A stretch of DNA of 64,000 bases from Verrucomicrobium sp. (GCA_017849585.1 JAFIGT010000033.1:1-64000); one strand, 5' to 3'. Counted from the first letter of the stretch, positions 19,111 to 64,000 are shown. Made by a program: numbers and translations. The notes: generated by a model from the letters alone, not told the origin.

Positions 19111-20319
19111 CTACACTTTCAAATCCGGATTGCCGGGGCCGAAATGTCTGAGCAACACGAGCGGGTCCGTGGCTGACGGATTTGTGATGACCACGCCTTC
19201 GCGTGCGGCCGCTTCGCTGACAAAGAATTCGTCCGAGGTTAATTGGCCATAGTGAATCAGTGCGGGTGATTCGACCTGCCACGTTCCGACAGAGCCGTGC
19301 CCCTGCACGACAATGAAGCCGTAGGCGGCGGCATCGGTGATGGTGACGGTGTGGCCAGGTAGCACAGAGAGTTCCTTTGCGCTGTAGTACTTGGATTTAT
19401 AGCAGATCCAACGATCGACATAGCCCTTCATTTCATTGAGCGGCTTCACCGGGTGGGGCCGCATGAAATGGTGATCGACGAAATTCGGGTCCACATTGGC
19501 GTCCCAGTCCAGTACGTCGATGAGATAATCGAAATCGCCCTTGTGCTCAGGCGGACAATCCTTCCAGAGCAACTCTTCCTGCACGAGTTGGTTGCCGACG
19601 AGGGATTGATACATCGCGTAGACGTCGGAATTCCGCTGTGGCTCGTAGGTGCAGAAGCTGCCCGGAGCATGCAGGATTCCGGGAGGTACGTCCCATCCGG
19701 TGCCGGGTTCAAGGCGATAGGCGCGGGAAAGATTGGTGATTTTGTTGTCGCCCTTGGTGAAATTGACGAGTGCTTCGCGCAGGGTTTCCCGTGTGGTACC
19801 GGGCTCGATGCCGAAGAACGTATAGGGGAAATCGCCACCGTGATTGTTCATCTGCGGAGAGAAATAATACGATTCCGGTTTTCCATTCTGGCCGACAAGT
19901 TTTGCGTGTTTGTCCTGATGATGCACGTGATGCGGTAGCGCGCCCATGTTATCGAAGAATTTCGAATACATCGGCCAGCAACGATGTTCCATCCAAATCC
20001 GATCACCAATGAGTGCGCCTTTCAATTCCTCAATCGCATCGCGCAGCAGGATTTTTTGTGTATGACCTCCGTCTTCGACGACGATGAAGCTCAGGCCTTC
20101 ATGCGGGGCAGTGAGTGGGCCATTGTCGGCGGGTGTTGTCGAGGACAGCCAGCGTTCGTCGAAGCCGCCGCGACTGCTGCCGAGGGCGTAGTAGTCGTCT
20201 GGATGCAGCTTGATGCGGCGTCCCGGCACGCAATAAAAGCGGGGGACCCAAGTGGGAGCGAGGCGGACAATGCCGCGTCCTTGTTCGAGAGCGAGATGGG
20301 CGAGGGAATGGGCGTTCAT
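19111..20319 (-). CDS. ManA-like cupin protein (phosphomannose isomerase superfamily)
   Basis: 402 residues from ATG 20319. It has two cupin-like halves. The first carries a His-rich metal site ALPHHVHHQDKHAKLVGQNG (about residues 128-147) followed by KPESYYFSPQ, an arrangement like class I phosphomannose isomerases. The second carries GWDVPPGILHAPGSFCTYEP (about 229-248). It lacks the full canonical PMI set, so the substrate may be a different sugar or sugar phosphate. It starts 12 bp after the GHL6-type glycosidase gene on the same strand and is surely co-transcribed with it, under the probable control of the divergent AraC regulator. The pair implies hydrolysis of a glycoside followed by isomerisation of the released sugar. 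Confidence 0.7.
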   Translation of the reverse strand: MNAHSLAHLALEQGRGIVRLAPTWVPRFYCVPGRRIKLHPDDYYALGSSRGGFDERWLSSTTPADNGPLTAPHEGLSFIVVEDGGHTQKILLRDAIEELKGALIGDRIWMEHRCWPMYSKFFDNMGALPHHVHHQDKHAKLVGQNGKPESYYFSPQMNNHGGDFPYTFFGIEPGTTRETLREALVNFTKGDNKITNLSRAYRLEPGTGWDVPPGILHAPGSFCTYEPQRNSDVYAMYQSLVGNQLVQEELLWKDCPPEHKGDFDYLIDVLDWDANVDPNFVDHHFMRPHPVKPLNEMKGYVDRWICYKSKYYSAKELSVLPGHTVTITDAAAYGFIVVQGHGSVGTWQVESPALIHYGQLTSDEFFVSEAAAREGVVITNPSATDPLVLLRHFGPGNPDLKV

Positions 20320-20331
20320 AAATGAGGGGAG

Positions 20332-22485
20332 TTAGTGATTTTGATATTCAAGTTCGTACATGGAAAAAATCTGGAAATCGTGAAAGTCGAATTCGATGCC
20401 GTCTGCTTTCGAACGAACGGGCACCTCTTGGAGTGAAGGGAGCGCGCGCAGGGCGACGAACCGTTTCGTGGAGTCGAGTCGCACCGTCACGCTGCCGGAG
20501 CAGGGAATGGGTTCTTCCTCCTGCCGCAGGGAGATCAGGCTGATGTTGAGCCGGTTTTGCTCCGCTTTGTGAAAGACGGTGATTTCGACGAAAACCGGTG
20601 CTTCCGCTTCCACGGTGAGAGGTTTGCCGAGCAACTCGCGAATGAGGCTCGCGACGACGGCGCGATTGACGCGCGAAAATTCCGCTTCGAGGGGCGCCGC
20701 GGAATAATAGGCGATACCTTGGCCATAGGTCTGACGTGTGATGGCCGGACAGGTCGCCTCCAGAGCAGGGGGCGTGCTATGGATGCTGGCAAAGGAAGGA
20801 CGCAGAACCGTGCCTTTATTTTCGGGATGCCACGGCTGCATCAGGTCGGCTAGGACTGTGGCAGTGCGATTGTGAATGGAGATCCACCCGGCGCGGTGTA
20901 TTAATTGCGTTTGCGGCGTCATCGGTTTGCTGAGCCAGCTATCGCGCGGAGTGAGGAAGGCGAGGGTGTGTTGCATGTCTTCACTGGCGGACACACCGAA
21001 GACGTCCGCCAGTCCGAAATCCGGGCGTCGTAGTCCCGTTTCCGCGACAAGACTGGAATACCCACTCGCATACAGATGACCTCCCTTCTCCACGTACTCG
21101 CGGAAGGCTGCGATCTCCTCATCCGACATCACGAGTACATTCGGCAGTACAACAGCGCGATAACGACTGAGCCGGGAGAGAGTGCGCTGGGTGAGAATCG
21201 CATAGGGAACGTGACTTTCTTGCAGACTTTGCGCTGCTCCCATCACGGCGGTCATGTGTGCTCCGGCAAAGAGGGTGGCCATGTTGTCGGAGCGTTCGGA
21301 AGATCTGGCCACGTCGCCTGTATCGCGGAAATCAAAACGGGATTCGGCGCTGACATAGATTGCCACGTCTGCGGTTAGTTCGCCGCCGAGGAACTTTTCG
21401 TACGGCTTCATTTTGGAAAAGAGGAATCCGATGCGATCGTACACAGCCGGGTTCAGAGTGCCGGTGGGATCGATGGCATCGATGAACATGAATGCAGCCG
21501 CGTGGGCAGGCGCGAGGAAGGCATGCATTTCCATCTGCGAAAGGCTCTTCGTCGTTACGTGATCCCGCAGATTGGTGCAGCGCGAGGTCATGAATTCAAA
21601 AGGCTTGCTGCGGCTGAGTGTCTCGAAAATTTTGCAAACTACGCTTTGCTGGACAGGAGGCCCGTAGAAATCGCCACTGGCGTAGTCGCAGTGATCGGTA
21701 ATGGAATAGGGCATCGCCACGCGCCAATCATGCAGAACGGGGCTCATCTGATGCGTCACCGTCATCGAAGGCCGCGACCGACGCACAGCGGCGGTGAGCT
21801 CGCCCGCCAATTCACTCATCCACCGCTCGCGCGCCCGCTGAAACGCCATCCAGACCGGATCATGCCAATCGGTGACTCGCGGCAAGGAGTGGCCTTCCTC
21901 CTGTTGAAAGCGGGCCTGACAATGCGGGCAATAGCACAGATAGGGCCAGAACAGCATGTCGAAAAAAATTCCATCAAAAGCATAGGTGCGGCAAATTTCC
22001 TCCGTCTGTGCGATGGCGAAATTTCGATAAGGCGAATTCGGACAGCAGGTGCCGTAACGACTGTGTTCATAGGTCGAAGGACCGGTCGGTGGCACGATCC
22101 GCCAGTCGGGATGATCGAGAAAGGCCACATTATTATAGACGGCACTGTAATACGCCACCACGGAGCCTCCCTGCTTTCGAGTACAGTTCAAGACCTCTTT
22201 GACAAAGTCGCCGGAGCCGATGGCGCGGTGAACGGGCCCGATTTTAGAGGGATATAAAGCGAGGCCGACATGGGAGTTGCAATAAAGCATGAGGGAGCCA
22301 CTCCGGCTCTTGGCCACGGTCTCAGCGAAGTGTTTTCCATCAAGCTTGGAGAAGAATCGCGGATCCCAATCGGGGATATGCATATCCACAAGCAGCCGGC
22401 TGTAGTGGCGATGAGACCACGGATTGAGAGACGTATCGGCTTGATCCTGTAATTGGGATGATTCTGCTAAAAAGCATTCGGTCAT
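20332..22485 (-). CDS. GHL6-type glycoside hydrolase with beta-galactosidase-like trimerisation domain
   Basis: 717 residues from ATG 22485, no signal peptide. The N-terminal (about 25-370) TIM-barrel-like part contains LLVDMHIPDWDPRFFSKLDG, YAFDGIFFDMLFWPYLCYCP and a CYCPHCQARF cysteine pair. It follows the hypothetical glycosyl hydrolase 6 / alpha-fucosidase-like pattern, in which the Asp in FDGIFFDM is the nucleophile candidate. Residues about 375-590 look like the class I glutamine-amidotransferase-like trimerisation domain of GH42 enzymes (SRYRAVVLPNVLVMSDEEIA), followed by a beta-sandwich end. It is probably an intracellular glycosidase acting on imported oligosaccharides. It is the first gene of a two-gene operon with the ManA-like cupin, divergent from the AraC regulator with 107 bp between starts. 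Sugar specificity is unknown. Confidence 0.75.
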   Translation of the reverse strand: MTECFLAESSQLQDQADTSLNPWSHRHYSRLLVDMHIPDWDPRFFSKLDGKHFAETVAKSRSGSLMLYCNSHVGLALYPSKIGPVHRAIGSGDFVKEVLNCTRKQGGSVVAYYSAVYNNVAFLDHPDWRIVPPTGPSTYEHSRYGTCCPNSPYRNFAIAQTEEICRTYAFDGIFFDMLFWPYLCYCPHCQARFQQEEGHSLPRVTDWHDPVWMAFQRARERWMSELAGELTAAVRRSRPSMTVTHQMSPVLHDWRVAMPYSITDHCDYASGDFYGPPVQQSVVCKIFETLSRSKPFEFMTSRCTNLRDHVTTKSLSQMEMHAFLAPAHAAAFMFIDAIDPTGTLNPAVYDRIGFLFSKMKPYEKFLGGELTADVAIYVSAESRFDFRDTGDVARSSERSDNMATLFAGAHMTAVMGAAQSLQESHVPYAILTQRTLSRLSRYRAVVLPNVLVMSDEEIAAFREYVEKGGHLYASGYSSLVAETGLRRPDFGLADVFGVSASEDMQHTLAFLTPRDSWLSKPMTPQTQLIHRAGWISIHNRTATVLADLMQPWHPENKGTVLRPSFASIHSTPPALEATCPAITRQTYGQGIAYYSAAPLEAEFSRVNRAVVASLIRELLGKPLTVEAEAPVFVEITVFHKAEQNRLNISLISLRQEEEPIPCSGSVTVRLDSTKRFVALRALPSLQEVPVRSKADGIEFDFHDFQIFSMYELEYQNH

Positions 22486-22592: not shown

Positions 22593-23447
22593 ATGTGGCT
22601 CGATCGGATTTCCCCCCAGCCCAATACCCTTTGGCGTGGCTCCTGGCCTGGTCATTTTGTGGAGCCTGCCCGGTATCTCTATGATCATGAGCTGGTATTG
22701 CTCTCGAAAGGCAAGGCGGTGCTGGAGGTGGAAGATCGTCGCTGGGAAATGACGCCGGGAACCTTTGCCATCATTCCTCCCGATACGAAGCATGTGACCA
22801 TGGCAAAGGCGGGATCGGTGTTTCGTTCCTGCATTCACTTTGACTGGATTTCTACCGGACATGCAGTGCGTCGACCCTTGTGCAGTTATTATCCCAAGCG
22901 GCCTGTACGTCGCTGGCTGGTGTCTAAACCCCCGTTTGTCCCTTTCCGTTTCCTGACAGGTCAGTATGCGGTGGATGGCGCGGTGCCGGCTTTGGTGGAG
23001 ACGATTTTTCTGCGGTGGCAGACTCAGGAAGCCTTTCATCGCGCCTTGAGCCGGAGTGCCTTGTTGGAGTTGCTGATTCAGCTTCTTTACCCATCCTCGC
23101 GAAGAGGAGCGCGACCGGATCGCGTGACGCAATTGGCCTATGCGGCGAAGGAAACGCTGGATCAGGAAGGGCGGCGGTCTGACCTCAGCGTTGTGGCGTT
23201 ACTGGAATCGCTTGGATACAGCTACCCGCATGTCTGCCGATTGTTCCGCAAAACGTTTGGACTTTCTCCGGTGGCCTACTTGAATGCGCAACGGCTCGAA
23301 CGGGCGAAGTCCTTATTGCGCCAGCCGCGCATCACCATTGCCGAAGTGGCTTATCAATCTGGCTTTCGCGATCCGGGCTACTTTACGCGCTTATTTCACA
23401 AGCAGACAGGACAGACGCCAGGCCGCTTTCGTCGTGAGCTGCGGTAA
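22593..23447 (+). CDS. AraC-family transcriptional regulator
   Basis: 284 residues from ATG 22593. The N-terminal cupin-like sensor (about 20-160) includes DHELVLLSKGKAVLEVEDRR and PGTFAIIPPDTKH. The C-terminal AraC DNA-binding domain (about 185-284) shows two helix-turn-helices, ending with the signature ITIAEVAYQSGFRDPGYFTR followed by LFHKQTGQTPGRFR. It is divergent from the GHL6/cupin operon, with the shared 107-bp region (22486-22592) the likely place for its operators. It probably senses the sugar released by that locus and activates the operon. Confidence 0.92.
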   Translation: MWLDRISPQPNTLWRGSWPGHFVEPARYLYDHELVLLSKGKAVLEVEDRRWEMTPGTFAIIPPDTKHVTMAKAGSVFRSCIHFDWISTGHAVRRPLCSYYPKRPVRRWLVSKPPFVPFRFLTGQYAVDGAVPALVETIFLRWQTQEAFHRALSRSALLELLIQLLYPSSRRGARPDRVTQLAYAAKETLDQEGRRSDLSVVALLESLGYSYPHVCRLFRKTFGLSPVAYLNAQRLERAKSLLRQPRITIAEVAYQSGFRDPGYFTRLFHKQTGQTPGRFRRELR

Positions 23448-24151: not shown

Positions 24152-25942
24152 TCAAGGTCGAGTGCGCACAAAGGCTTTCATCGTTGCACATTCGGTTTGG
24201 GTAGAGGCGTTGGTGGGGCGAATCGTGTAGGCCCCCACGGCAGCGGGGACAATGAAAGTCTCCGCGTAATGTACCAGAAAGGGTTCGAAAGCGCCGGTGG
24301 GACTCTCGATCACTGCTTCATCCCCTTGCACGAGATTGAGCACGTGTACACCGCCGGAATGTTGCCCGCCGGTTTGGTGCTGTACGGTCTTGTTAAACCA
24401 GTGACGTCGCGTTTCGATAAATTCCGCCTCATGCAGGCCGGTGCGCTCCTCGCGCCAACCATCTCCGGCGGCCATCGGAGTGAACTGATTGATTAAGCGC
24501 TTGCGGGCGTACTCCTCATCGCGAGACCAATCGATGACCTGTCTGCCGCGCTCGATATTCACCGGACGCGGAAGTCCATCGAGCCCCATGCGGCCCCAGT
24601 CCCAGAGCTTGAAGGTGAAGATGTACGGCGTGGCGGAGATTTCCAGAACCATGCCGTTGGCGCCGGAGCAGTGGAGCGTCCCGGCTGGAATCAAAAAATG
24701 ATCGTGTTTTTTGGCAGGCCATTGGGCCACGAATTTCTCATCGGGGAATGTGCTTTCGCCGCGTTGCGCGGACTCGAGCGCGGTGATCATCTCGCAGAAA
24801 TTAGCTTCGTTTTTACGACCGAGGTAAACCACCGCATTATCCCCGGCATCCAGCATATAATAGCTTTCGTCCTGCGTGTAGTGAATGCCGAAATGTTCCT
24901 GCACAAACTCGGTGGTGGGGTGGACTTGAAAGGAAAGATTTCCTCCGCCCATCGTATCGAGAAAATCAAAGCGGATTGGAAATTCTGGGCCAAAGCGTCC
25001 ATAAACGGGTTCGCCTAGCAGGGCTTTCGGTTGATTGAAAACCAGGTTGATGGCTGGAATTTCGATGCGAAGTCCATCCGCACACTCCAGTAGCAGCGAG
25101 TTTTCTTCCGGCACGCAATCGAAACACCACGCGTAATTCACCTGTGAACGGTCCAGATCGCACACCTCTTTCATCCACTGGCCTCCCCAGGGGCCGGGAT
25201 CAAAGAAAGGAACCACGCGGAAGGGTCGCGTCACGGCGTGTCGCAAGGCTGCCAAGTGAGCCGCGCCAGACAGGAGCTTTGGTTTCGTGCGATCCGTGGT
25301 ATCGAGCAGGAAATCCCACCGTTCCATCGTCCGCTGTTTCAGCCGGTCGCAGACGCGCCAGTCGATAAAGAATGAGCGTTTGTATTGAAGCGACGCTTTC
25401 AGTTCGCGGTTGTTCACTCCGAGGTTGGATACTTCATTGCGCCGCTGGCGCAGTTGCCCTTCCCAGCGCGGCATGTCCGCGTAAATGAGGAGGTCCGGCG
25501 CCGCGAGAAGAGAAGCGCCCGGTCCCACGATCAGAATCGCTCCCGATGCGCATTCCGATAATTTCTGACGCGCGGTCCGCACTCTTGCCTCGTCGAGGAA
25601 GTCCTCCATCTGCAGACGGCTTAGAAATCCAAAGACCGGGTCCGCGCCACCCAGATCGGGCGCGACGAGTTGATCGATGGCCTCTTCGGATTTCAATATC
25701 GTTGTGGAGTCAATGCCCAATACAGGCTGTATCGCACGGTGGAGGTGCGCGCTTATTTCTTCGCAGATCACGCCCGGATAGCATTCCACACCGACGACCA
25801 AAAACCGTGACGAGTTCGTCTGCTTTTTCTGGATGGCTTGTTTAATCGTTGCGCCAATCGTGTCCCACCCGGCCCAGGCTTCGCGGGCATGACTTGCCGG
25901 AACTGGTACGGTGGGAAATTTATCGTAATGGGATGTTCTCAT
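24152..25942 (-). CDS. Class I mannose-6-phosphate isomerase, long form
   Basis: 596 residues from ATG 25942. Residues about 270-590 are a class I PMI. A PWGGQWMK block is followed by the metal-binding region LSFQVHPTTEFVQEHFGI (Gln and His ligands), then Glu in DESYYMLDAG, and HDHFLIPAGTLHCSGANGMV with the later His. The N-terminal 250 residues resemble a nucleoside/uridine-kinase-like fold (SRFLVVGVECYPGVICEEIS) but lack an intact P-loop. This two-part layout is known among long PMIs of Firmicutes and others. The reaction is mannose-6-phosphate to fructose-6-phosphate. It is the last gene of the five-gene operon transcribed from 30625, 21 bp after the cupin PMI gene. Confidence 0.8.
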   Translation of the reverse strand: MRTSHYDKFPTVPVPASHAREAWAGWDTIGATIKQAIQKKQTNSSRFLVVGVECYPGVICEEISAHLHRAIQPVLGIDSTTILKSEEAIDQLVAPDLGGADPVFGFLSRLQMEDFLDEARVRTARQKLSECASGAILIVGPGASLLAAPDLLIYADMPRWEGQLRQRRNEVSNLGVNNRELKASLQYKRSFFIDWRVCDRLKQRTMERWDFLLDTTDRTKPKLLSGAAHLAALRHAVTRPFRVVPFFDPGPWGGQWMKEVCDLDRSQVNYAWCFDCVPEENSLLLECADGLRIEIPAINLVFNQPKALLGEPVYGRFGPEFPIRFDFLDTMGGGNLSFQVHPTTEFVQEHFGIHYTQDESYYMLDAGDNAVVYLGRKNEANFCEMITALESAQRGESTFPDEKFVAQWPAKKHDHFLIPAGTLHCSGANGMVLEISATPYIFTFKLWDWGRMGLDGLPRPVNIERGRQVIDWSRDEEYARKRLINQFTPMAAGDGWREERTGLHEAEFIETRRHWFNKTVQHQTGGQHSGGVHVLNLVQGDEAVIESPTGAFEPFLVHYAETFIVPAAVGAYTIRPTNASTQTECATMKAFVRTRP

Positions 25943-25963
25943 CGGATACGAAATAGAAAGCGT

Positions 25964-26359
25964 TTACTCGCCTTGCTCGGGGCGTTTGAAGTCGTCCTCG
26001 TAGCGGACGATGTCGGCCTGTTGCCAGTTGCCGAAGGCCACCTCGAGCACGCGCACCGGTTGGTCCGTTACACACGAGAGACGATGCTTTTCATTGGCAG
26101 CAATCCAGATTTCATCACCGGCCTTGTGAGCGCGGATCGTGTCACCCACTTGGACGAGTGCGCCATCGTCCAGCACAATCCATAACTCCGCGCGACCTGT
26201 GTGTGATTGCAGGCTGAGGCGTTGGCCGGGCTTCACGGTCATCAGACTGACAGTGCAGTCCTGATTGAAGGCATATTGCTTGAAGCTGCCCCACGGCCGC
26301 TCGACAAAATCCACCTTGGGTTTTGCATGGGGAATGGATTTGGTGATGTAGTGGTTCAT
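25964..26359 (-). CDS. Cupin of the type II phosphomannose isomerase family
   Basis: 131 residues from ATG 26359, which overlaps the preceding gene by 4 bp (ATGA coupling). Residues about 15-120 match the C-terminal cupin domain of mannose-1-phosphate guanylyltransferase/PMI enzymes: VERPWGSFKQYAFNQDCTVS, PGQRLSLQSHTGRAELWIVL, then GDEIWIAANEKHRLSCVTDQ. Here the domain stands alone, without the guanylyltransferase part. It could interconvert mannose-6-phosphate and fructose-6-phosphate or a related sugar phosphate. In this operon it sits between a cupin glucose-6-phosphate isomerase and a class I PMI, so its substrate is probably not simply mannose-6-phosphate. Confidence 0.8.
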   Translation of the reverse strand: MNHYITKSIPHAKPKVDFVERPWGSFKQYAFNQDCTVSLMTVKPGQRLSLQSHTGRAELWIVLDDGALVQVGDTIRAHKAGDEIWIAANEKHRLSCVTDQPVRVLEVAFGNWQQADIVRYEDDFKRPEQGE

Positions 26360-26937
26360 AAAGATTCACTCCGATTCATGCGCGGAAGCAGCGTCGGCTT
26401 TCCGGATTTCTCGATGACGATGTGACGGAAATTTTTCTCTGCGATAGCCTGGTAGTCGTGCCCCGCTTTAGCCGGGTAGACTCCGATATAGACCAATGGC
26501 TCGTTCCCGGTATTCATCGTGCGATGAGCGGTATGACCGGGTACGTAGATAATGGAGTTGGATGTGAGAGGCTCCATCCGACTATCGCCTGTGGATTCGT
26601 CCTCCAGTAACATCACGCCTTGACCGCGCAAACCGATATAGACTTCGGCTGCCGGTCGCCACGCATGCAGGTGGCCTTTCGTCATGAAGTATTCGTTGCC
26701 GATTTTTCCGGGATAGAGAACGCCAATTCCATAATGAAGATCGCCTTCACCCTGGCCGGGCTCCACGGCTGCAACGGCGTAAAGCAGTGGGTTCTCTGCG
26801 GCAAGGCGAGCTTCAAACGCGGAAGCATCGGCAAAGCAGCCTTTCAAATCGGAGAGTCTTCGTTCTACGCATTTGCCGGAAGTGAGTTCTCCGGTGGCGG
26901 CATTATAGTATTGGGTAAGATCGAATGGGGGGAGCAT
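26356..26937 (-). CDS. Cupin-type glucose-6-phosphate isomerase
   Basis: 193 residues from ATG 26937. The motifs match archaeal-type phosphoglucose isomerase (cupin PGI): HYGIGVLYPGKIGNEYFMTK, then KGHLHAWRPAAEVYIGLRGQ with the His, His and Glu metal ligands, and YVPGHTAHRTMNTGNEPLVY with the last His. It converts glucose-6-phosphate to fructose-6-phosphate with a bound metal. It starts 2 bp after the kinase gene and overlaps the next gene by 4 bp, so it is embedded in the operon. Its presence next to a BadF-type kinase suggests the kinase product is a hexose-6-phosphate. Confidence 0.88.
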   Translation of the reverse strand: MLPPFDLTQYYNAATGELTSGKCVERRLSDLKGCFADASAFEARLAAENPLLYAVAAVEPGQGEGDLHYGIGVLYPGKIGNEYFMTKGHLHAWRPAAEVYIGLRGQGVMLLEDESTGDSRMEPLTSNSIIYVPGHTAHRTMNTGNEPLVYIGVYPAKAGHDYQAIAEKNFRHIVIEKSGKPTLLPRMNRSESL

Positions 26938-26939
26938 GT

Positions 26940-27932
26940 CTATTCTTGGGTTTGTTCCGAGAGTCGGCGTAGTGATTCGAGTTGAAATGTGTGTTGGGCC
27001 TGTGCGGCTGCGATGGATAGAGCGCCGATGGCAGGACGCAGTTGGGTCGTATGAAAAATAGCTTGGGGGATTCGGGAGTGAATCGCGCTTTCGACTGGGA
27101 CGCGATACCGGGCGCTTTTTTCAAATAGTCCACCGATCAAGACTACATCGCATGGCTGTTGCGGGAAGAGGCGATGCGCGACGGCTTCCACCATGCGTGC
27201 CAATTCATCGGCTCCGGTAGTTACGATGGCTATGGCCGCTGCATCGCCTTGATGCGCCGCCTTCAAAACGAGCGTGGCCAAAGCGGCGACTTCATGACGG
27301 GCCAATCCCGGGCGATGCACTTTGGAAGAAAAATCGGCGACATTAGTCACGTCCAAGGTGCTGAAAAACAGGTTCTGCAAAAGCGAAGGAGCGATTCGAC
27401 CATCGGCGCTTTGACACGCTGCCGCCATGCCTTTCTGCGCCAAATCATAGCCACTGCCAAGATCGTCCAATAGCCGGTCCCAACCTCCCGCCTGCCACGA
27501 TTTTCCCTCAGCATTGCGGCCATAGCAGGATGAGCCCGTCCCAGCGATCACGGCGATGCCCGGTCGTCCGGCGAGGCCACCTTCAAGTGCAATGCGAATG
27601 TCGTGATCGACTCCGCACAGGCAGGAGGGTGAGAGATTCCAGCTCCGCGCCAGACGGAGGGCATGCGCGCGATCTTCGTCGGTGACCACGCCCGCCATTC
27701 CCAGAAAGAGGCTGCGGATCTGGTTGGTGTTGATTCCGGCATCGGCGCTGGCCATACGCACGGCTTCAAACATGTTCGTTCCGGCCTGATTCCATCCGGC
27801 GTGAGTGGGATTGGCGCCTGCTGCGTAGCCCCAACCGAAATTTTTTCCGTTGGTGGATAGAATTACGGCGCGGCTGGAAGTTCCCCCGGCGTCTACACCG
27901 CAATAGAAAGGGGGAATGTCATTTCGGTTCAT
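26940..27932 (-). CDS. BadF/BcrA-family sugar kinase (N-acetylglucosamine-kinase-like)
   Basis: 330 residues from ATG 27932, overlapping the end of the glycosidase gene by 4 bp. The ASKHA fold is visible: phosphate-1 loop CGVDAGGTSSRAVIL at residues 11-25, phosphate-2 loop AVIAGTGSSCYGRNAEGKSW around 130-150, GGWDRLLDDLGSGYDLAQKG, and an adenosine motif VVLIGGLFEKS near 262. This is the pattern of eukaryote-like GlcNAc/glucosamine kinases of the BadF/BadG/BcrA/BcrD ATPase family. It probably phosphorylates the sugar freed by the upstream secreted enzyme, giving a 6-phosphate for the three isomerases downstream. Whether the sugar is glucose, mannose or an amino sugar cannot be read from sequence. 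There is no deacetylase or deaminase (NagA/NagB) in the operon, which argues against GlcNAc. Confidence 0.85.
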   Translation of the reverse strand: MNRNDIPPFYCGVDAGGTSSRAVILSTNGKNFGWGYAAGANPTHAGWNQAGTNMFEAVRMASADAGINTNQIRSLFLGMAGVVTDEDRAHALRLARSWNLSPSCLCGVDHDIRIALEGGLAGRPGIAVIAGTGSSCYGRNAEGKSWQAGGWDRLLDDLGSGYDLAQKGMAAACQSADGRIAPSLLQNLFFSTLDVTNVADFSSKVHRPGLARHEVAALATLVLKAAHQGDAAAIAIVTTGADELARMVEAVAHRLFPQQPCDVVLIGGLFEKSARYRVPVESAIHSRIPQAIFHTTQLRPAIGALSIAAAQAQHTFQLESLRRLSEQTQE

Positions 27933-30625
27933 TCGACCTCCACGATTTCAAAAAAGGGCGTCGGCCCTGCCTTCGAGAGTTGATGGGTATCAATCGCGAG
28001 CGAGAGCGTTTTATCCTCGATCTGGATGGGTATTTCCTCGGCGCGCTCGCCATTGAGTTTGAGCGCGTAGGCTACCATCTTTTTGGGTGCAGTCGCCCGT
28101 GTCAGCGTCATTTTGAATTGTCCGGTGCGACAAAGCACCGGCAGGTGGCCAAGACTGAGGAGCTTGTCTTCGCTACTATCGGTGAATTTCATGCCGGTGT
28201 TGCGTGCGTCGGTAGAGATCACCAGCAACAGGCGCGTCGCTTCGCGCACGGTCTTTCGGCTGTCGAGCGAGGCCAACGTAATCGAGGCGGGAATAGAGCA
28301 CTGATCGATCGTCATCGCATCAAGGCGCGCTTTCTTGTCACTCTTCAGGACCGCTCCTTCGAGGCGCGGCGTGCGGACGAAAAGCTCGCCTCCAGTCTGG
28401 GTGCGCAGCGTCACTTCGCCCGTATCGCTTTCGAGAACGCCGGCGGTGGGGTTGCTTTTGTTGGGGGTGGGTAGCACTTTGAGTTCCTTTAACTTTGCGA
28501 CAATAGCGGTGAGCTGGCCCGTGCTGTCGGACTTCGTCACGTCGGAGAACCAGATGCTGCCGCCTATGGAAGCCATCTTGTCCGGCGACACGCTCAGTAC
28601 GGTGGGATAGGGGAATTGCTTGGGTCCATAGGTGATCCCCACTCGGCAGAGCACCCACAAGCGCGAAAGTTCATCGTCGAGCGCCTTCATGGCGCGGCCG
28701 GCATAAATGAATTCGTCCGTCAGAGGAATTTCAATGGTATGGGACGACATCGCAACATCGCCCCGTCGGAACAGCAGCGCTGCGACGGCCTCGGAAGCGC
28801 GAATGACGGGATCATCCCCCACATGAAACCACAGCAAGGCTGATCCGGAATCGACGACTTGCGTGGCATGACAGGTCAGCGAACTCCATCCTTGCAGTGC
28901 CGCGCCCGTGCCATGCAGCAGACCTTGCTCATGACGGTACGGATTCCAAAACACGAGACCAAATTCCGTATTCACAAAGGGACGATCAAGGAAGCGCGCC
29001 ATCGTCTGGTTTTTGAAACTGGAGCCGCCGTCGGCCAACGCGCTGTTTTGGTTTACCTCGGTGTTGGGTCCGAAGTGGGGATGCGCGTGATAGGCGTTCA
29101 TCGTCACGACGGGATAAAGCGCGCGCGCGGGCACAGTGCCAATGCGAGTTCGCATGTTGTAATTCGAGATAAGTCCCGTAAAACCGAGTTCGCGCAATGT
29201 CGTTAGATACCACTGCGCCATTTCCACTTCCATGTCTCCGCAACACCTGGCCATGTCGCGACCCGCAGGTGTATCGGAAAGGACAGTCGGTGCTGCGATG
29301 GAGGGGACATCTGTGAAGCTGCCATTTTCCGGTAGTTCAGTCGCGCCACATTTGCCGCCCCACGCTGCGCGCATTTTTTTGTAATCGCCGTACTTTTGGG
29401 CGAGGAACGCCTGCCAGACAAGATCGAACTCCTTCCCATAGTTGCGTTGTTCGAAGAGAATTTCCTGTTCGTTCAGGCACGATGCGATGGCCAGTGCCGG
29501 ATCGTTCTTCAGCGGCAATTGCGTATAGGGATTCACATCGTTGAGCAACCGAGTGACCGCCGCTTTCCAGTTGGCGCGAAAATTCGAATTCACATACATT
29601 TGCGCCTTGGTGTTATAGCCCCCTTGCTTCGGTGCGGACTGCAACTTGCCATTCGCGTAGCCGACAAAGGAGGTCATGAAATCGAGATTCCAGTACACAC
29701 CATGTTTCTTGAGTTGCGCCAGCAGCAGGTGGTAGCGGTCGAGCGCGCGGAGATCGAAGGTAATATCTTCCGGTTTGTCCGGCAGGGTATACCGCTCTAA
29801 TTCCGGAGGTAATTTCTTGAGCGCGGCGGCCTTGTCGTTGCCATTGATGAGATTGTCGAAAAACGGAAAGCGGACGAGATTGTAACCTTGCCGAGCGACG
29901 GCGGCGGCGAACTCCGCGATTTCGACGTCACTCCAGTTTCGAAAACTGGCCGGGGGCTCGAGTTGCACTGAGAAAAACCGGGCGGCGTTGTCCGGCTTCG
30001 AGGCGAAGGCCAACTCCCCTTTTTTATTCACGATGACGCGACCATAAGTTCCAGCGGGGACTTGATCGAAGAAGGGTGAGAAATCGAGCGCAGAACCGGG
30101 CTTGATGTAAAGATCCGTGGTATCAAGCGCCTTCCAGACCACCGGTGAGGCCGATATGGCGCTCTTCACTTGCGAAACGGGAATGACCTTCAAAGAACGC
30201 ATACGAACTTCGCCGCTTGTCGGAAAATTGTCGAAGACAATCAAAGGCAGATTAATCCGAGGCAACGAGGTGGCACTTACAGCAAAACGAAGCGTGAATG
30301 GTTGCCATGTGGGAGTGAGGTGAATTGTCTGTGCTGGGGAAAGGTGGGCGTAGGGCGGGGCAAAGTTGGAGATCAGCAAGCGCGCGCTGAGTGGAACCGT
30401 GCTCTGCGCCTCGAATTGCAGGGCGATCGTTTGGCCCGCCGCTACCTCGGCATTCCCAGCCATGCCGACGGCAGGAGGCCACTCGCTTTTTTTTTCGGTA
30501 AAATGAATGACGATTTCCCCATTAGACACCTCCGCTTTGGCGCCATTCCGTGCAGAGAGATCCTGAGCCGGGACAGTTTCGGCGATCAAACCGAGACTCA
30601 GCAGAAATAGTAGCAGCGGGCGCAT
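27929..30625 (-). CDS. Secreted clan GH-A-like glycosidase with N-terminal beta-sandwich domain
   Basis: 898 residues from ATG 30625. Domain order: signal peptide MRPLLLFLLSLGLIAETVPA; carbohydrate-binding-like beta domain about 22-150 (NGAKAEVSNGEIVIHFTEKK ... NLPLIVFDNFPTSGEV); linker; TIM-barrel-like catalytic domain about 165-620; C-terminal beta-rich part. The acid/base candidate is Glu386 in CLNEQEILFE and the nucleophile candidate Glu554 in FVNTEFGLVF, at the spacing usual for clan GH-A (GH5-like) enzymes. The residue after Glu386 is Gln, where GH-A members and the paralogue at 62538 have Pro. It is the first gene of the kinase/isomerase operon and divergent from the DeoR regulator. 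Activity and substrate are unknown; I could not assign a GH family number. Confidence 0.75.
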   Translation of the reverse strand: MRPLLLFLLSLGLIAETVPAQDLSARNGAKAEVSNGEIVIHFTEKKSEWPPAVGMAGNAEVAAGQTIALQFEAQSTVPLSARLLISNFAPPYAHLSPAQTIHLTPTWQPFTLRFAVSATSLPRINLPLIVFDNFPTSGEVRMRSLKVIPVSQVKSAISASPVVWKALDTTDLYIKPGSALDFSPFFDQVPAGTYGRVIVNKKGELAFASKPDNAARFFSVQLEPPASFRNWSDVEIAEFAAAVARQGYNLVRFPFFDNLINGNDKAAALKKLPPELERYTLPDKPEDITFDLRALDRYHLLLAQLKKHGVYWNLDFMTSFVGYANGKLQSAPKQGGYNTKAQMYVNSNFRANWKAAVTRLLNDVNPYTQLPLKNDPALAIASCLNEQEILFEQRNYGKEFDLVWQAFLAQKYGDYKKMRAAWGGKCGATELPENGSFTDVPSIAAPTVLSDTPAGRDMARCCGDMEVEMAQWYLTTLRELGFTGLISNYNMRTRIGTVPARALYPVVTMNAYHAHPHFGPNTEVNQNSALADGGSSFKNQTMARFLDRPFVNTEFGLVFWNPYRHEQGLLHGTGAALQGWSSLTCHATQVVDSGSALLWFHVGDDPVIRASEAVAALLFRRGDVAMSSHTIEIPLTDEFIYAGRAMKALDDELSRLWVLCRVGITYGPKQFPYPTVLSVSPDKMASIGGSIWFSDVTKSDSTGQLTAIVAKLKELKVLPTPNKSNPTAGVLESDTGEVTLRTQTGGELFVRTPRLEGAVLKSDKKARLDAMTIDQCSIPASITLASLDSRKTVREATRLLLVISTDARNTGMKFTDSSEDKLLSLGHLPVLCRTGQFKMTLTRATAPKKMVAYALKLNGERAEEIPIQIEDKTLSLAIDTHQLSKAGPTPFFEIVEVE

Positions 30626-30701
30626 GGAAGGGTTTGGGTGGAAATGAAATCAGGATCGATTCGTCGAAATAAAAATACGCTGCCTCGCAGGGTCCGGCAA
30701 A

Positions 30702-30745
30702 AACAATGTTTCTTTATTTTAAATATTGTTAAAATTTATAACATT
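30702..30745. promoter_or_regulatory. Candidate DeoR operator in divergent promoter region
   Basis: The 136-bp region between the divergent starts at 30625 and 30762 contains aacaat (30702-30707) facing attgtt (30725-30730), and aatgtt (705-710) facing aacatt (740-745), in very AT-rich DNA. Repeated short inverted words of this kind are typical of DeoR/GlpR operators. Binding by the neighbour is inference. Confidence 0.45.
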
Positions 30746-30761
30746 CGGTATTTCTTCGTTC

Positions 30762-31529
30762 ATGCCCAAGTTGCTCTCCGATCAACGCCTCAAATGGCTC
30801 CGTCATGAACTGGCCCGTCAGGGCAACTTGCGGGTTCGGGATGCGGCGGCGCAACTCGGAGTTACGGTGATGACGGTATGGCGTGACCTGCAGCAACTGG
30901 AGACGTTGGGCGAGGTTCGCCGCGTCCATGGAGGCGCCCTGCCCGCTCTGCCCGCCGATGAACAGGAGCCCGATTACACCGCCAAGGCGGCGGCAGCTAC
31001 GGAGGATCGATTGAAACTGGCGCGTTACGCCGCTCGTCGGTTTCCCCGCGCGGGACAATCCATTTCCATTGAAGGAGGAACGACGGCGATCAGCATGCTT
31101 TCGCACATCGAATCACCCCATCTCACGATTCTCACCAATAGCGTGGAAGCGATGCGGCAGACGCGTTCCACCGACACGGTGCTCGGCTGCGGCGGCATTT
31201 ATCGTCACGTATCGCGTACTTTTGTCGGACCACAGGCGGTCGATTTTTTTCGCACGCACCGCAGTGATCTCTGCGTGATCAGTGCCACCGGGTTCAGGGT
31301 CGAAACCGGGCTGACCGATCCTAACCCGATGGAAATCGAAGTGAAGCAAGCCATGTGTGATGCCTCGGCCAAAGTGGTTCTTCTCCTTGATCGTTCCAAG
31401 TTCGGCAAGCGTTCCCTCAGCAAGGTGCTGGATCTGCAGAAAGTACACACACTTGTGACAAATGAAGGTATTCCGGCGGCGGAACTCAAACCATTCCGTC
31501 GCGCGGGAGTGTGTATTGAGTTGGTCTGA
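30762..31529 (+). CDS. DeoR/GlpR-family transcriptional regulator
   Basis: 255 residues from ATG 30762 (MPKLLSDQRLKWLRHELARQ). The N-terminal DeoR-type winged helix-turn-helix spans residues 1-60 (VRDAAAQLGVTVMTVWRDLQ ... LGEVRRVHGGAL). The C-terminal DeoRC sugar-phosphate-binding domain begins with FPRAGQSISIEGGTTAISML and contains VISATGFRVETGLTDPNPME and KVVLLLDRSKFGKRSLSKVL. Such regulators repress sugar operons and release DNA on binding a phosphorylated sugar. It is divergent from the glycosidase/kinase/isomerase operon and is its probable regulator. A frame extension to 30726 exists but runs into the operator region, so the ATG at 30762 is preferred. Confidence 0.92.
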   Translation: MPKLLSDQRLKWLRHELARQGNLRVRDAAAQLGVTVMTVWRDLQQLETLGEVRRVHGGALPALPADEQEPDYTAKAAAATEDRLKLARYAARRFPRAGQSISIEGGTTAISMLSHIESPHLTILTNSVEAMRQTRSTDTVLGCGGIYRHVSRTFVGPQAVDFFRTHRSDLCVISATGFRVETGLTDPNPMEIEVKQAMCDASAKVVLLLDRSKFGKRSLSKVLDLQKVHTLVTNEGIPAAELKPFRRAGVCIELV

Positions 31530-31639: not shown

Positions 31640-32467
31640 ATGAGTAGGAAGCGCCACGATCGAGGTTCTGCGGTAGTCAGGCCGCCAAGGCGCTCTCATG
31701 CCGGTTTTACCTTGATTGAGCTCCTCACGACGGTGGGGATCGTTGCCATCCTCGCGGCCCTGATGATACCGATGGCGCAAAATAGCATCGAGGCGGCGCG
31801 ATCCTCGGGTTGCCTGACCAATCTCCGCCAGATCGGCGTTGCCACGGCGGCCTACGTCAGCGAAAACGATGGCGCCGTCGTTCCGTCCTCGCTCACTGTT
31901 TCGGGTGTTACTCTTCCGGTTCGCTGGCGCGCATTTTTGCAGCCGTACATTCCTTCGCGTGACATGAAGACCTTTATCTGTCCTTCCTATCTCATCGATG
32001 TGAAATTCATGCAGACCAACGATTTGAATTTTCGCATTACGACCGGACTACAACCCTGCTCCTACGATATTAATAGTTACTACAACGCGGCCAATGGTCT
32101 GTACCCTCCCGGCGTGCACGACACCTTCAATGGCTATCTCAATCTCCATCGAAAGCTGGCTGTTGTTCCGAATCCGAGTCGCAACATCTATATCTTCGAT
32201 GTGGGCATTCCCGACAGCATTTCGGTGCCCTATCCCCAGTGGACCGAGAACGGACGCGGTCGCCTGGCCACCTGTTTCAGTTCACTGATGCCCAACTTGT
32301 GGACAGCGCGTAACTGGTGCATTTATCCGCGCCATAAAAAAGGGACCAAGGTCAACGCGCTCTTTTACGACGGGCACGTGGCGAGTCTCGATTTCGTGCG
32401 CGATATTGTGAATAGTCCTCCGGGCAATGAGAATTGTCTCTACGATTTTCAAGGAGGTTTTAAATGA
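31640..32467 (+). CDS. Prepilin-like secreted protein (type II secretion/pseudopilin-like, H-X9-DG type)
   Basis: 275 residues from ATG 31640. After a basic leader (RPPRRSHAG) comes the prepilin cleavage/methylation site G-FTLIELLTTVGIVAILAALM, then a helix, a globular part and the C-terminal RHKKGTKVNALFYDGHVASL, the H-X9-DG-like motif of the DUF1559-like proteins abundant in Planctomycetes, Verrucomicrobia and Lentisphaerae. Leader cleavage by a prepilin peptidase and display at the membrane or in a pseudopilus is expected. It overlaps the next gene (a secreted glycosidase) by 4 bp, so the two are translationally coupled. That coupling suggests it helps place or export the glycosidase, but the mechanism is unknown. 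Confidence 0.88.
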   Translation: MSRKRHDRGSAVVRPPRRSHAGFTLIELLTTVGIVAILAALMIPMAQNSIEAARSSGCLTNLRQIGVATAAYVSENDGAVVPSSLTVSGVTLPVRWRAFLQPYIPSRDMKTFICPSYLIDVKFMQTNDLNFRITTGLQPCSYDINSYYNAANGLYPPGVHDTFNGYLNLHRKLAVVPNPSRNIYIFDVGIPDSISVPYPQWTENGRGRLATCFSSLMPNLWTARNWCIYPRHKKGTKVNALFYDGHVASLDFVRDIVNSPPGNENCLYDFQGGFK

Positions 32468-33909
32468 AACGGCCATTGGCGGTGACGGTTCTTGGGATGT
32501 GGATGCTCAGTCAGGTATTCGGCTTGGCGCAATCGATGACGGTGGCCGAGCCTTCCCAGGTCAATCCACTCGATGGCCCCTTCCTCGGTTTTGGCGCGGA
32601 ATGGGACGGGCGTGGTTATGCTTACACCAAGTTCACGGAGGAGGATTGGAAGCTGGTGCAGGAACGAATCCAATGGATGCGGCTTCCGCTGGTTCGGATC
32701 ATGATGCAGGCCAGCTGGTGCTATACCGGGAACGGAGCTTACCAGTGGGACGGCGAAGCAATGCGGATCTTACAGCGACAGCTCGATTTCTGCGAGGCGC
32801 AGGGAATCACGGTCCTGCTGACCGATTGGGGAGTGAATGACAACTGGATGCGTATCCCCGATATTAAGCGGATGGATGACCCGAAGTACGCGGAGATCAT
32901 CGGTACTTACCTCGACTACCTGCTCAACGAGAAAAAATACACCTGCCTCAAATACTTCATTTTCGTCAATGAACCGGGGCGTCCGGCCACGCGCGACGAA
33001 TGGCTCGCGGGGCTGGCCAACGTGGCGGCAGAGTTGAAGAAACGTGGTTTGGATCAGCGTATTCGACTCACCGCTCCAGACCAATCTGGCAATCGCTACG
33101 ACCTGCTTCCCGCCACCATCGAAAAACTGGGCTACGCTCTGGGCGCGTACGATCTTCACCTGTACGCCAATCAAAACAAAGGCCATGCCACCACGGCCGA
33201 AGCGGCACGCAGCGGCGACATTCGCCGTCATTTTACCGAAGCATGGAAACTGGCTCGCACGATGGATCCCGACCGCAGTAAGCCACTGATTATTGCGGAA
33301 GCGGGCTACTGGTCTGAACCGCCGGAGGTGGCGAAACGCGCGGACGCCGCCACGAACAGTTGGCACCGGGATTGGCGCTATGGTTTTTTCATGGCGCAGT
33401 ATGCGATTCAAGCCGTGGAAGCGGGTTCCTGGGGCGTCTCGGCCTGGATGCTCGATGATACGTCGCACTTGAATTTCAGTTGGGGCATGTGGGCGAGCAA
33501 GAAGGAGGACTTTGCGCTCAAGCCGTGGTTCTACGTCTGGGCGTTGCTGAGCCGCTCCTTTCCGCCCGGTGCCACCATTTCGCTTGTGACTGATACCCCG
33601 CCCGGGATTCAAATTCTGGCGGCCAGACTCCCCGGCCTCGACTCGAAAATCGGTCGCGAGCGCTGGTCCTTGTGTGTGGTCAATACGGAGAAAAATGAAG
33701 TGAAATTTGCACTTCGTCTGTCTGGATCCGGCGTCATCGAAACGGACTGCTATCTCTATTCGGAGAAGCAAGCTGCGACTGATGCCAAAGGGATGCCCCA
33801 ACCGGGCGAACGCCGCTCCATGGCTTGGGACAAAGGAGAACTCCTGTCATGTCCGCCCGAGAGCGTGCTTTTCTTCGTGCCGAGCTCTTGGAATGTGTCG
33901 AACAAGTGA
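32464..33909 (+). CDS. Secreted clan GH-A glycosidase (GH5/GH39-like)
   Basis: 481 residues from ATG 32464, with a strong AAGGAGG ribosome site inside the previous gene. The signal peptide is residues 1-23 (LAVTVLGMWMLSQVFGLAQS). The TIM-barrel catalytic domain (about 35-400) has acid/base candidate Glu170 in YFIFVNEPGR and nucleophile candidate Glu279 in PLIIAEAGYW, giving the usual spacing of retaining clan-A enzymes. WMRLPLVRIMMQASWCYTGN near residue 71 is the conserved Arg strand region. A small beta domain ends the protein. It is translationally coupled to the prepilin-like gene upstream. Substrate unknown. Confidence 0.82.
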   Translation: MKRPLAVTVLGMWMLSQVFGLAQSMTVAEPSQVNPLDGPFLGFGAEWDGRGYAYTKFTEEDWKLVQERIQWMRLPLVRIMMQASWCYTGNGAYQWDGEAMRILQRQLDFCEAQGITVLLTDWGVNDNWMRIPDIKRMDDPKYAEIIGTYLDYLLNEKKYTCLKYFIFVNEPGRPATRDEWLAGLANVAAELKKRGLDQRIRLTAPDQSGNRYDLLPATIEKLGYALGAYDLHLYANQNKGHATTAEAARSGDIRRHFTEAWKLARTMDPDRSKPLIIAEAGYWSEPPEVAKRADAATNSWHRDWRYGFFMAQYAIQAVEAGSWGVSAWMLDDTSHLNFSWGMWASKKEDFALKPWFYVWALLSRSFPPGATISLVTDTPPGIQILAARLPGLDSKIGRERWSLCVVNTEKNEVKFALRLSGSGVIETDCYLYSEKQAATDAKGMPQPGERRSMAWDKGELLSCPPESVLFFVPSSWNVSNK

Positions 33910-62039: not shown

Positions 62040-62495
62040 ATGCGTCATCTCATACTCACAGCTCTGCTGATCGGCCTGCTCTCGGGAGCGGTCCACGCCC
62101 AGGAAATTGCCGCCCGCAACGGCGCTCAAGCGACTACCGTCAATGGTGAGATCGTCATCACTTTTGCCTCGAAAAAAGGCGAATGGCCGCCCGCCGTGGG
62201 CATCCCGGAAAAGGCATCCGTGGTCGCGGGAAAAAAGATCACGCTTACCTTTGAGGCCAAAGCCACCGAGGCGATGCCTGTGCGCCTTGTGATTTCCGAA
62301 TTCGTCGCGCCCTACACACATCTGGCCGGGGCGGAATCGATCAAGCTCGGCACCTCGTGGCAGCCGGTCTCGCTGACTTTCACCGTCAGCGCGACGAGCG
62401 CGGCGAATGTGAATCTGCCCTTGATCGTATTTGAAAGTTCCCCCACCAGCGGAGAAGTGCGCGTGCGCAACGTCAAGGCCGTTCCGGCCCCCTAA
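62040..62495 (+). CDS. Stand-alone copy of the glycosidase N-terminal domain
   Basis: 151 residues from ATG 62040, with an AAAGGA ribosome site. A signal peptide (MRHLILTALLIGLLSGAVHA) precedes one beta-sandwich domain: EIAARNGAQATTVNGEIVIT, EWPPAVGIPEKASVVAGKKI, SEFVAPYTHLAGAESIKLGT and NLPLIVFESSPTSGEVRVRN. It matches, block by block, the first 150 residues of the glycosidases at 62538 and 27929, but here it ends at RNVKAVPAP with no catalytic domain. It may be a secreted carbohydrate-binding or scaffold protein, or a remnant of tandem duplication that kept an intact frame. It starts 30 bp after the upstream gene and lies 42 bp before the glycosidase. Confidence 0.78.
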   Translation: MRHLILTALLIGLLSGAVHAQEIAARNGAQATTVNGEIVITFASKKGEWPPAVGIPEKASVVAGKKITLTFEAKATEAMPVRLVISEFVAPYTHLAGAESIKLGTSWQPVSLTFTVSATSAANVNLPLIVFESSPTSGEVRVRNVKAVPAP

Positions 62496-62537: not shown

Positions 62538-64000
62538 ATGCGTTCCTTCATTGTCTCCGTTCTCGTCCTCGGTCTGCTGGCCGGGACCGTCGCCGCCCAG
62601 GAACTCTCCGCCCGCAATGGGGCGAAGGCCGATGTTGCCAGCGGTGAAATCGTTGTCCGTTTTGCCGAAAAGAAAGGCGAATGGCCACCCGCTGTCGGCA
62701 TCGCCGGAAAGACGGAGGGTGTTGCTGGCAAATCGATCGTACTGGAATTCGAAGCCAAGAGTACGACATCGCTTCCCGTTCGTGTGGTTATCTCCGACTT
62801 TGCAGCGCCCTACACCCATCTCTCGCCAGCGCAAACGATTAACATTGGCACGGCGTGGCAAGCCTACTCGCTCACTTTTGCGGTGAGCGCGACGAACGCC
62901 GTGAAGATCAATCTGCCGCTGCTCGTTTTCGAGAGCTCTCCCACCAGCGGGGAAGTTCGATTCCGCAATATCAAGACCTCCACGCCAGTAGCGGCTGCAG
63001 CGGCTGCGGCCCTGCCGGCAGTGGAACGGAAGTGGAAGGCCATCGATACGACCAATCTCTTTATCAAGCCTGGTAGCGCGCTCGACTTCACGCCTTTCTT
63101 CGACCAAGCGGCGGCGGGTACGTATGGACGGCTGATCGTGAATAAGAATGGCGAGTTTGCTTTTGCTTCCAAGCCGGACGCGTCGGTGCGCTTCTTCTCG
63201 GTGCAGCTCATGCCGCCGCCGGATTTCACCTTATGGACGGATGAGGATGTGGCGCAGTACGCGGCCGCCATCACGCGCCAGGGCTACAATCTCGTGCGCT
63301 TCCACTTTTTCGATAATCTGATCAATGGCAATTTCCGAGCGGCTCCGCTAAAGGCCACTCTGCCAAACATGGAGCGCTACACGCTGCCGGAGAAGCCGGA
63401 GGAAATCCAATTCGATGCGCGTGCCATCGACCGCTTCCATCTCCTGCTGGCGGAGCTCAAGAAGCGCGGAGTGTACTGGAATCTCGATTTCATGACGTCG
63501 TTTGTCGGCTACTCCAACGGCAAGCTGCAGTCCGCGCCCAAGCAGGGAGGTTTCAACACCAAGGCACAGATGTATGTGAATCCGAATTTCCGCGCCAACT
63601 GGAAAGCGGCGGTCACGCGGTTGCTCAACGACGTGAATCCCTACACCAAGCAGTCAATCAAGAATGATCCCGCCTTGGCTTTGACCACCTGCCTCAACGA
63701 ACCGGAAATCCTGTTCGAACAGCGCAATTACGGTCACGAGTTCGACGGGCCGTGGCATGCTTTCCTCGCGAAGAAATATGGCGATTACAAAAAAATGCGC
63801 GAAGCGTGGGACGGCAAATGTGGTACCACGGTGCTGCCGGAAAATGGCACCTTTGCCGATGTGCCGCCCATCGGCGCGCCGACGGTGCTGACCGATACTC
63901 CGGCTGGTCGCGACATGGCGCAGTGCTGCGGCGGCATGGAATATGAAATGGCGCAGTGGTATCTCGCCACGTTGCGCGAACTTAACTTCCCCGGTCTCGT
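62538..64000 (+). CDS. Secreted clan GH-A-like glycosidase, paralogue of 27929 (cut by window end)
   Basis: 487 codons are visible from ATG 62538, and the frame stays open to the right edge. The order equals that of the enzyme at 27929: signal peptide MRSFIVSVLVLGLLAGTVAA, N-terminal beta domain (about 22-150), a short Ala-rich linker (VAAAAAAALPAV) and the start of the catalytic barrel (WKAIDTTNLFIKPGSALDFT). The acid/base motif is CLNEPEILFEQ, with the Pro typical of clan GH-A that the other paralogue has replaced by Gln. The part holding the nucleophile lies beyond the window. It is the third gene of the block with the secreted beta-sandwich protein and the stand-alone domain. Confidence 0.78.
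   Translation, partial: MRSFIVSVLVLGLLAGTVAAQELSARNGAKADVASGEIVVRFAEKKGEWPPAVGIAGKTEGVAGKSIVLEFEAKSTTSLPVRVVISDFAAPYTHLSPAQTINIGTAWQAYSLTFAVSATNAVKINLPLLVFESSPTSGEVRFRNIKTSTPVAAAAAAALPAVERKWKAIDTTNLFIKPGSALDFTPFFDQAAAGTYGRLIVNKNGEFAFASKPDASVRFFSVQLMPPPDFTLWTDEDVAQYAAAITRQGYNLVRFHFFDNLINGNFRAAPLKATLPNMERYTLPEKPEEIQFDARAIDRFHLLLAELKKRGVYWNLDFMTSFVGYSNGKLQSAPKQGGFNTKAQMYVNPNFRANWKAAVTRLLNDVNPYTKQSIKNDPALALTTCLNEPEILFEQRNYGHEFDGPWHAFLAKKYGDYKKMREAWDGKCGTTVLPENGTFADVPPIGAPTVLTDTPAGRDMAQCCGGMEYEMAQWYLATLRELNFPGL

Follow-up and report, generated by a model that had tools for sequence, protein, structure and literature searches.

A conserved DeoR-linked sugar-catabolic operon of Verrucomicrobium sp. 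combining a hexose kinase, a long class I mannose-6-phosphate isomerase and a pair of cupins

The isomerases encoded in the operon analyzed here have known relatives. Pyrococcus furiosus PfPGI (PF06560), whose metal ligands and proton-transfer residues have been assigned (PMC6627849), shares these residues with the cupin-type glucose-6-phosphate isomerase (cupin GPI) of the operon; unlike PfPGI, however, the latter stands beside a second cupin, in genomes that also possess a canonical PGI. ManA of Bacillus subtilis (PDB ID 1qwr) and ManA of Salmonella (3h1m) have the same fold and the same Q-x-H/E/H metal site as the C-terminal 360 residues of the long class I mannose-6-phosphate isomerase (long PMI), which differs from them by an additional N-terminal domain of ~230 residues. 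The C-terminal PMI domain of ManC/AlgA (PF01050) displays the same Q-x-H...E...H pattern as the stand-alone cupin of the operon, but the latter is a cupin only, without the fused GDP-mannose pyrophosphorylase domain. With respect to gene organization, alpha-mannan loci with GH92/GH76/GH38 and a ROK kinase, such as those of Spirosoma and Parabacteroides distasonis, resemble our locus in combining the long PMI with a kinase, often together with an MFS porter. These loci lack the cupins, whereas the operon described here has a BadF kinase, a DeoR regulator and an unclassified GH-A enzyme instead.

The window, i.e. the whole stretch of 64,000 nucleotides of Verrucomicrobium sp. DNA that was analyzed (GCA_017849585.1 JAFIGT010000033.1:1-64000), contains five tightly packed genes on the minus strand, opposite a divergent DeoR gene (Table 1). 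Recomputing the coordinates in the window reproduced exactly the five-gene arrangement of the original prediction: the genes for the glycoside hydrolase (GH) and the BadF kinase overlap by 4 bp, the BadF and cupin GPI genes are 2 bp apart, the cupin GPI and cupin PMI genes overlap by 4 bp, and 21 bp separate the cupin PMI gene from the long PMI gene. The family assignments of the BadF kinase, the cupin GPI, the PF01050 cupin and the DeoR protein were upheld by Pfam. The window operon indeed contains no transporter gene; among the cupin-bearing loci of its relatives, 20/46 encode an MFS sugar porter no more than 5 kb away.

Table 1. Coordinates of the operon and its regulatory region, counted from the first nucleotide of the window
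Feature	Position	Strand	Basis
Long class I mannose-6-phosphate isomerase (long PMI), 596 aa	24152..25942	-	1qwr match E 4e-8; superposed model
Stand-alone PF01050 cupin, second cupin of the pair (cupin PMI), 131 aa	25964..26359	-	PF01050 E 7e-21
Cupin-type glucose-6-phosphate isomerase (cupin GPI)	26356..26937	-	PF06560 E 6e-29
BadF/NagK-type hexose kinase	26940..27932	-	PF01869 E 7e-32
Secreted clan GH-A glycoside hydrolase, 898 aa, no Pfam family	27929..30625	-	Fold and invariant residues
Upstream element common to the second operon copy (37/46 bp identical)	30697..30742	.	Comparison with simulated pairs
Putative DeoR operator TGTTATAAATTTTAACA, read on the minus strand	30727..30743	.	Perfect genome matches at two operons
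DeoR-family repressor; ORF listed from TTG 30726, likelier start ATG 30762	30762..31529	+	PF00455, PF08220

The synteny check proposed with the original prediction was run by scanning 84,980 genomes for the long PMI and taking the best 80 loci as a sample; these came from Verrucomicrobiota, Bacteroidota, Acidobacteriota, Planctomycetota, Enterobacterales and Photobacterium. Together with the loci from relatives and from phylum searches, they gave 96 non-redundant long-PMI loci. Cupin isomerases are present in 46 of these and absent from the other 50 (with some contigs ending near the PMI gene, this number may include a few incomplete loci). A survey of 240 genomes from the same phylum as the window showed the cupin PMI next to the long PMI in 8/8 copies, and likewise the close copies of the cupin GPI in 12/12. 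The grouping is thus conserved across phyla, far beyond the genome of the window. Adjacency by chance, one of the outcomes that had been named as refuting the prediction, is ruled out by these synteny counts; considering also the upstream elements specific to the cassette (see below), we rejected this explanation as having practically no probability. The claim that no described pathway has exactly this set held as well: no paper describing it was found in the literature searched, which missed most subscription journals.

The second cupin is not the same in all loci. In the 46 cupin-bearing loci it is of the PF01050 type in 29, where it occurs with the cupin GPI, and in 17 it is GPI2, a second PF06560 subfamily, and the two types never occur together (0 loci). 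A cupin GPI gene lies within 5 kb in 13/17 of the GPI2 loci and further off in two more (L089 and L092), and the combination of cupin GPI and GPI2 was found in four further loci by other searches (L218 and L219 in the cupin GPI search, Persicobacter and P. distasonis in plasmid searches). When mapped on the PMI tree, the presence of cupins required 13 changes, and a mapping with three states required 15, compared with a mean of 39.8 for shuffled labels. These few changes indicate that the cupin pair is gained or lost as a unit, and that its second member has been swapped. In P. distasonis, the cupin GPI, ROK kinase, GPI2, MFS porter, PF12876 and GH2 genes form a single run without PMI, and the long PMI is encoded in a separate GH92/GH38 locus. 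Because of this operon, we conclude that the pair contributes a function beyond that of PMI and is also able to act separately. In Enterobacterales the cassette occurs in a rearranged form. Furthermore, the long PMI of Buttiauxella and Mixta is accompanied by a mannose-family PTS and that of Photobacterium by a fructose-type PTS and GH38 (L115, L116, L093, L106), and therefore the sugar would arrive already phosphorylated in these organisms. A search for the Buttiauxella unit in E. coli gave no homologues.

The long PMI comprises an N-terminal alpha/beta domain (residues ~1-230) and a class I PMI domain (~235-596). None of the type I PMI models of Pfam and NCBIfam matches it above the cut-off, whereas its relatives are annotated by NCBI as 'class I mannose-6-phosphate isomerase'. 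The original assignment as a long class I PMI was confirmed by the sequence match to B. subtilis ManA and by the AF2 model (pLDDT 93.5), in which residues 238-592 superpose on 1qwr (VIA Z 31.1, rmsd 2.6, 309 residues). Since oxalate decarboxylase and seed globulins come up as the lower-ranked fold matches, class I PMI itself has a bicupin-type fold, and the original description of the three isomerases as 'three unrelated folds' is incorrect, as all three are cupins. Residues Q339, H341, E359, H424, E434, K445 and R451 are invariant in 97 sequences, and the Q-x-H, E, H metal site and the conserved Arg of class I PMI are present in 97/97. A glutamine (Gln357; placed by motif alone) is found in all 97 long PMIs two residues before the Glu ligand, at the position of a lysine (K132) in Salmonella. 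We also considered a different PMI substrate in the cupin loci and rejected it, as the inspected active-site residues do not differ between cupin-bearing and cupin-free loci. The intact class I site and the alpha-mannosidase context of the relatives suggest that the long PMI most likely converts mannose-6-P to fructose-6-P. Mannose is indicated by the neighbors of the cupin-free long PMIs, which include GH92 (16/50 loci), GH38, GH76, SusCD, a ROK kinase and an MFS porter; in Spirosoma, the GH76, GH92, ROK and PMI genes form a single run.

The N-terminal domain (residues 1-235, window 25238-25942) is conserved and carries the motifs ECYPGV and YADMxRWE, yet no relative of it was detected by sequence in PDB or Pfam. 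A degenerate motif, noticed by eye, suggested a P-loop kinase; a profile compared with PDB and Pfam gave no credible match, hhalign against one uridine kinase sequence gave no score, and the results of a structure search with the long PMI model were filled by cupins. The family with this N-terminal domain reaches Listeria (L202, L203) and Deinococcus (L205), as well as Actinomycetota (Arthrobacter, L206) at ~30-36% identity; the records annotate these four proteins too as class I mannose-6-phosphate isomerase. Elsewhere in the window, a 402-aa protein (19111-20319, minus strand) without a Pfam match looks by eye like a PMI-type bicupin, with a weak match to 1qwr (E 0.029), and its gene adjoins those of a GHL6/GH42M-type hydrolase (20332-22485) and an AraC regulator (22593-23447).

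The kinase scores 111.5 bits against PF01869 (cut-off 31.5). Its matches in PDB include the MurNAc/GlcNAc kinase 8zo3 (E 2e-30) and the hexokinase 2e2n (E 5e-22), and it does not reach the cut-off of the N-acetylglucosamine kinase (NagK) equivalog NF046058 (118 vs 370 bits). A BadF kinase 51% identical to that of the window is found in locus L039, together with GH38 and PMI and without cupins. The ROK kinases of other loci have one LGGH motif with few variants, common to cupin-bearing and cupin-free loci. The ROK motif common to both contexts and the BadF/GH38/PMI locus both argue for mannose, so that, judging from family, motif and gene context, the substrate of the cassette kinase is probably mannose. 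This supports the mannose part of the mixed-hexose substrate (glucose plus mannose) that had been proposed for the operon.

The glucose part of that proposal received a mixed answer. The cupin GPI matches P. furiosus PGI (1x7n) with E 7e-49 and its best match is 1j3p (E 2e-49). The residues equivalent to PfPGI H88, H90, E97, H136, Y152 and H158 are present in the window protein, with Y152 replaced by Trp in 16 relatives, and the active site, as read from the sequence, looks like that of an ordinary G6P/F6P isomerase, in line with a role in glucose utilization. However, a canonical PGI is present in 23/24 cupin-bearing genomes and in the window's own genome. We therefore rejected the idea that the cupin GPI replaces a missing PGI, and glucose alone does not need it. 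The presence of PGI is also one of the arguments for an alternative in which the two cupins form a two-step route, combining an isomerase with epimerase-type chemistry, for a hexose other than mannose or glucose: the kinase would phosphorylate this hexose at position 6 and the cupins would convert the product to fructose-6-P, with PMI as an optional companion. The cupin GPI is nearly always paired with a single second cupin, of one type or the other, and the P. distasonis pair has its own kinase and transporter. In addition, GH92 was found in 0/46 cupin-bearing vs 16/50 cupin-free loci (Fisher P 9e-6, a value that overstates the evidence, as the loci are related), suggesting different sugar mixes for the two kinds of loci; GH2 and sulfatase genes are found near the cupin loci. 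The ordinary appearance of the cupin GPI site speaks against such a route, and so do the ROK kinases, which belong to the same motif class as those of the alpha-mannan loci. We consider it doubtful that the pair works in this way, and equally so that it would constitute an undescribed two-enzyme module for a non-glucose, non-mannose hexose-6-phosphate plugged into mannose operons.

The PF01050 cupin scores 75 bits (curated cut-off 23.6) and is 54-83% identical to its cassette homologues. Residues Q51, H53, E58 and H92 are invariant. The canonical motif of the ManC/AlgA-type PF01050 domain is QxHxHRxEHW, and its second His is absent in all 25 aligned sequences of the cassette cupin. Given that PF01050 is the domain of type II PMIs and that the gene contexts of both kinase and PMI favor mannose, all three isomerases could serve this sugar: the second cupin would act as an additional isomerase or anomerase of mannose-6-P, with the cupin GPI pushing fructose-6-P towards glucose-6-P and so avoiding a build-up of mannose-6-P. 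Half of the long-PMI loci, however, lack the cupin pair, and GPI2, which takes the place of the PF01050 cupin in other loci, is a relative of PF06560 rather than of PMI, which makes this explanation, too, rather unlikely. GDP-mannose synthesis likewise involves PMI and PF01050 domains, and the set could accordingly feed GDP-mannose or a related nucleotide sugar, as an NCBIfam GMP_PMI match might suggest. This is very improbable: the operon includes a DeoR repressor, a kinase and a secreted GH, a Pfam search revealed no nucleotidyltransferase or mutase gene in it, and a separate short PMI-like protein is encoded elsewhere in the genome.

No Pfam family, including GH42, GH50 and GH5, matches the GH above its cut-off, and the same is true of NCBIfam; its relatives match GH42 or GH5 weakly. 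The N-terminus reads like a signal peptide. The nearest structures found by Foldseek with the AF2 model (pLDDT 81.5) are GH42, GH50 and GH5 mannanases, and N385-E386 and E554 are invariant. The enzyme is thus by fold a TIM-barrel protein of clan GH-A, as had been claimed, in which the Asn-Glu pair would provide the acid/base and the second Glu the nucleophile. A glucomannan or beta-mannan utilization operon would combine mannanase, beta-mannosidase or GH130 genes with a transporter gene; here, mannanase-like folds are among several fold matches of the GH, and GH2 beta-mannosidase-like genes occur in the loci of only some relatives. The unclassified GH-A enzyme is present in two further copies (71-73% identity), at window position 62538 onward and on another contig of the assembly (C15:15982-18675), and a partial second match to its N-terminal region lies at window 62091-62486.

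The DeoR protein has PF00455 (E 4e-35) and PF08220 (HTH_DeoR, E 4e-13) domains, both above the cut-off. A second copy of the operon is present in the same genome, on contig 43 (C43, L032), with DeoR 75%, BadF 66%, cupin PMI 82% and PMI 78% identical to the window proteins; it also encodes a PF12876 cellulase-like protein. In its cupin GPI gene (L032 7615-8190), an in-frame TAG stands in place of the Tyr codon of the window copy, reflecting either a mutation or an assembly error. The regions upstream of the two copies are identical at 37/46 bp, whereas 200 simulated pairs gave a mean of 22.8 and a maximum of 26. Because an ORF started at the TTG would run through this common element, translation of DeoR probably begins at the ATG. 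The two copies also share a 17-bp palindrome, TGTTATAAwTwTTAACA, with perfect genome matches only before the two operon copies, and we propose it as the putative DeoR operator. In its place, other DeoR cassettes have the triple repeat TGTTA-N13..15-TGTTA-N3..6-TGTTA, which occurs 13 times in 1.48 Mb, 12 of them in DeoR/cassette gaps and the thirteenth (L190) just upstream of a BadF gene; the repeat was first spotted by eye in the same gaps, so this count is not independent of its discovery, which leaves its rarity elsewhere unaffected. A similar triple repeat upstream of a GH3 gene (L045 11200) hints at a wider regulon. Downstream of DeoR, the plus strand (31640-33909) encodes a protein that by eye resembles a pseudopilin, together with a secreted GH5-like protein; both genes are possibly co-transcribed with DeoR.

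The reading of the locus as a sugar catabolic unit is supported, and the operon probably feeds mannose and a second hexose into central metabolism. In our working model, the secreted GH-A enzyme would trim a glycan, and a transporter encoded elsewhere would import the released sugar. The BadF kinase, judging from its family and context, would then make a hexose-6-phosphate, most likely mannose-6-P, which the long PMI would turn into fructose-6-P. The cupin GPI and the second cupin would channel another hexose-6-P into this fructose-6-P pool, and our first guess for it is glucose-6-P. We judge the odds of this interpretation slightly better than even: a hexose catabolic operon repressed by DeoR, in which the kinase and the long PMI handle mannose and the cupin pair has been added for a further hexose-6-P. 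As for the pair itself, it may serve a second hexose-6-P or extra flux, with glucose as the simplest guess.

In conclusion, the cassette is a genuine and conserved version of a sugar-catabolic operon for which we found no description in the literature searched. It spans Verrucomicrobiota, Bacteroidota, Acidobacteriota and Planctomycetota, with the rearranged form in Enterobacterales in addition, and presents a clean case of two different cupins occupying the same slot. It also brings to light a large PMI subfamily with an additional N-terminal domain that falls outside every curated PMI profile, and supplies a predicted operator.
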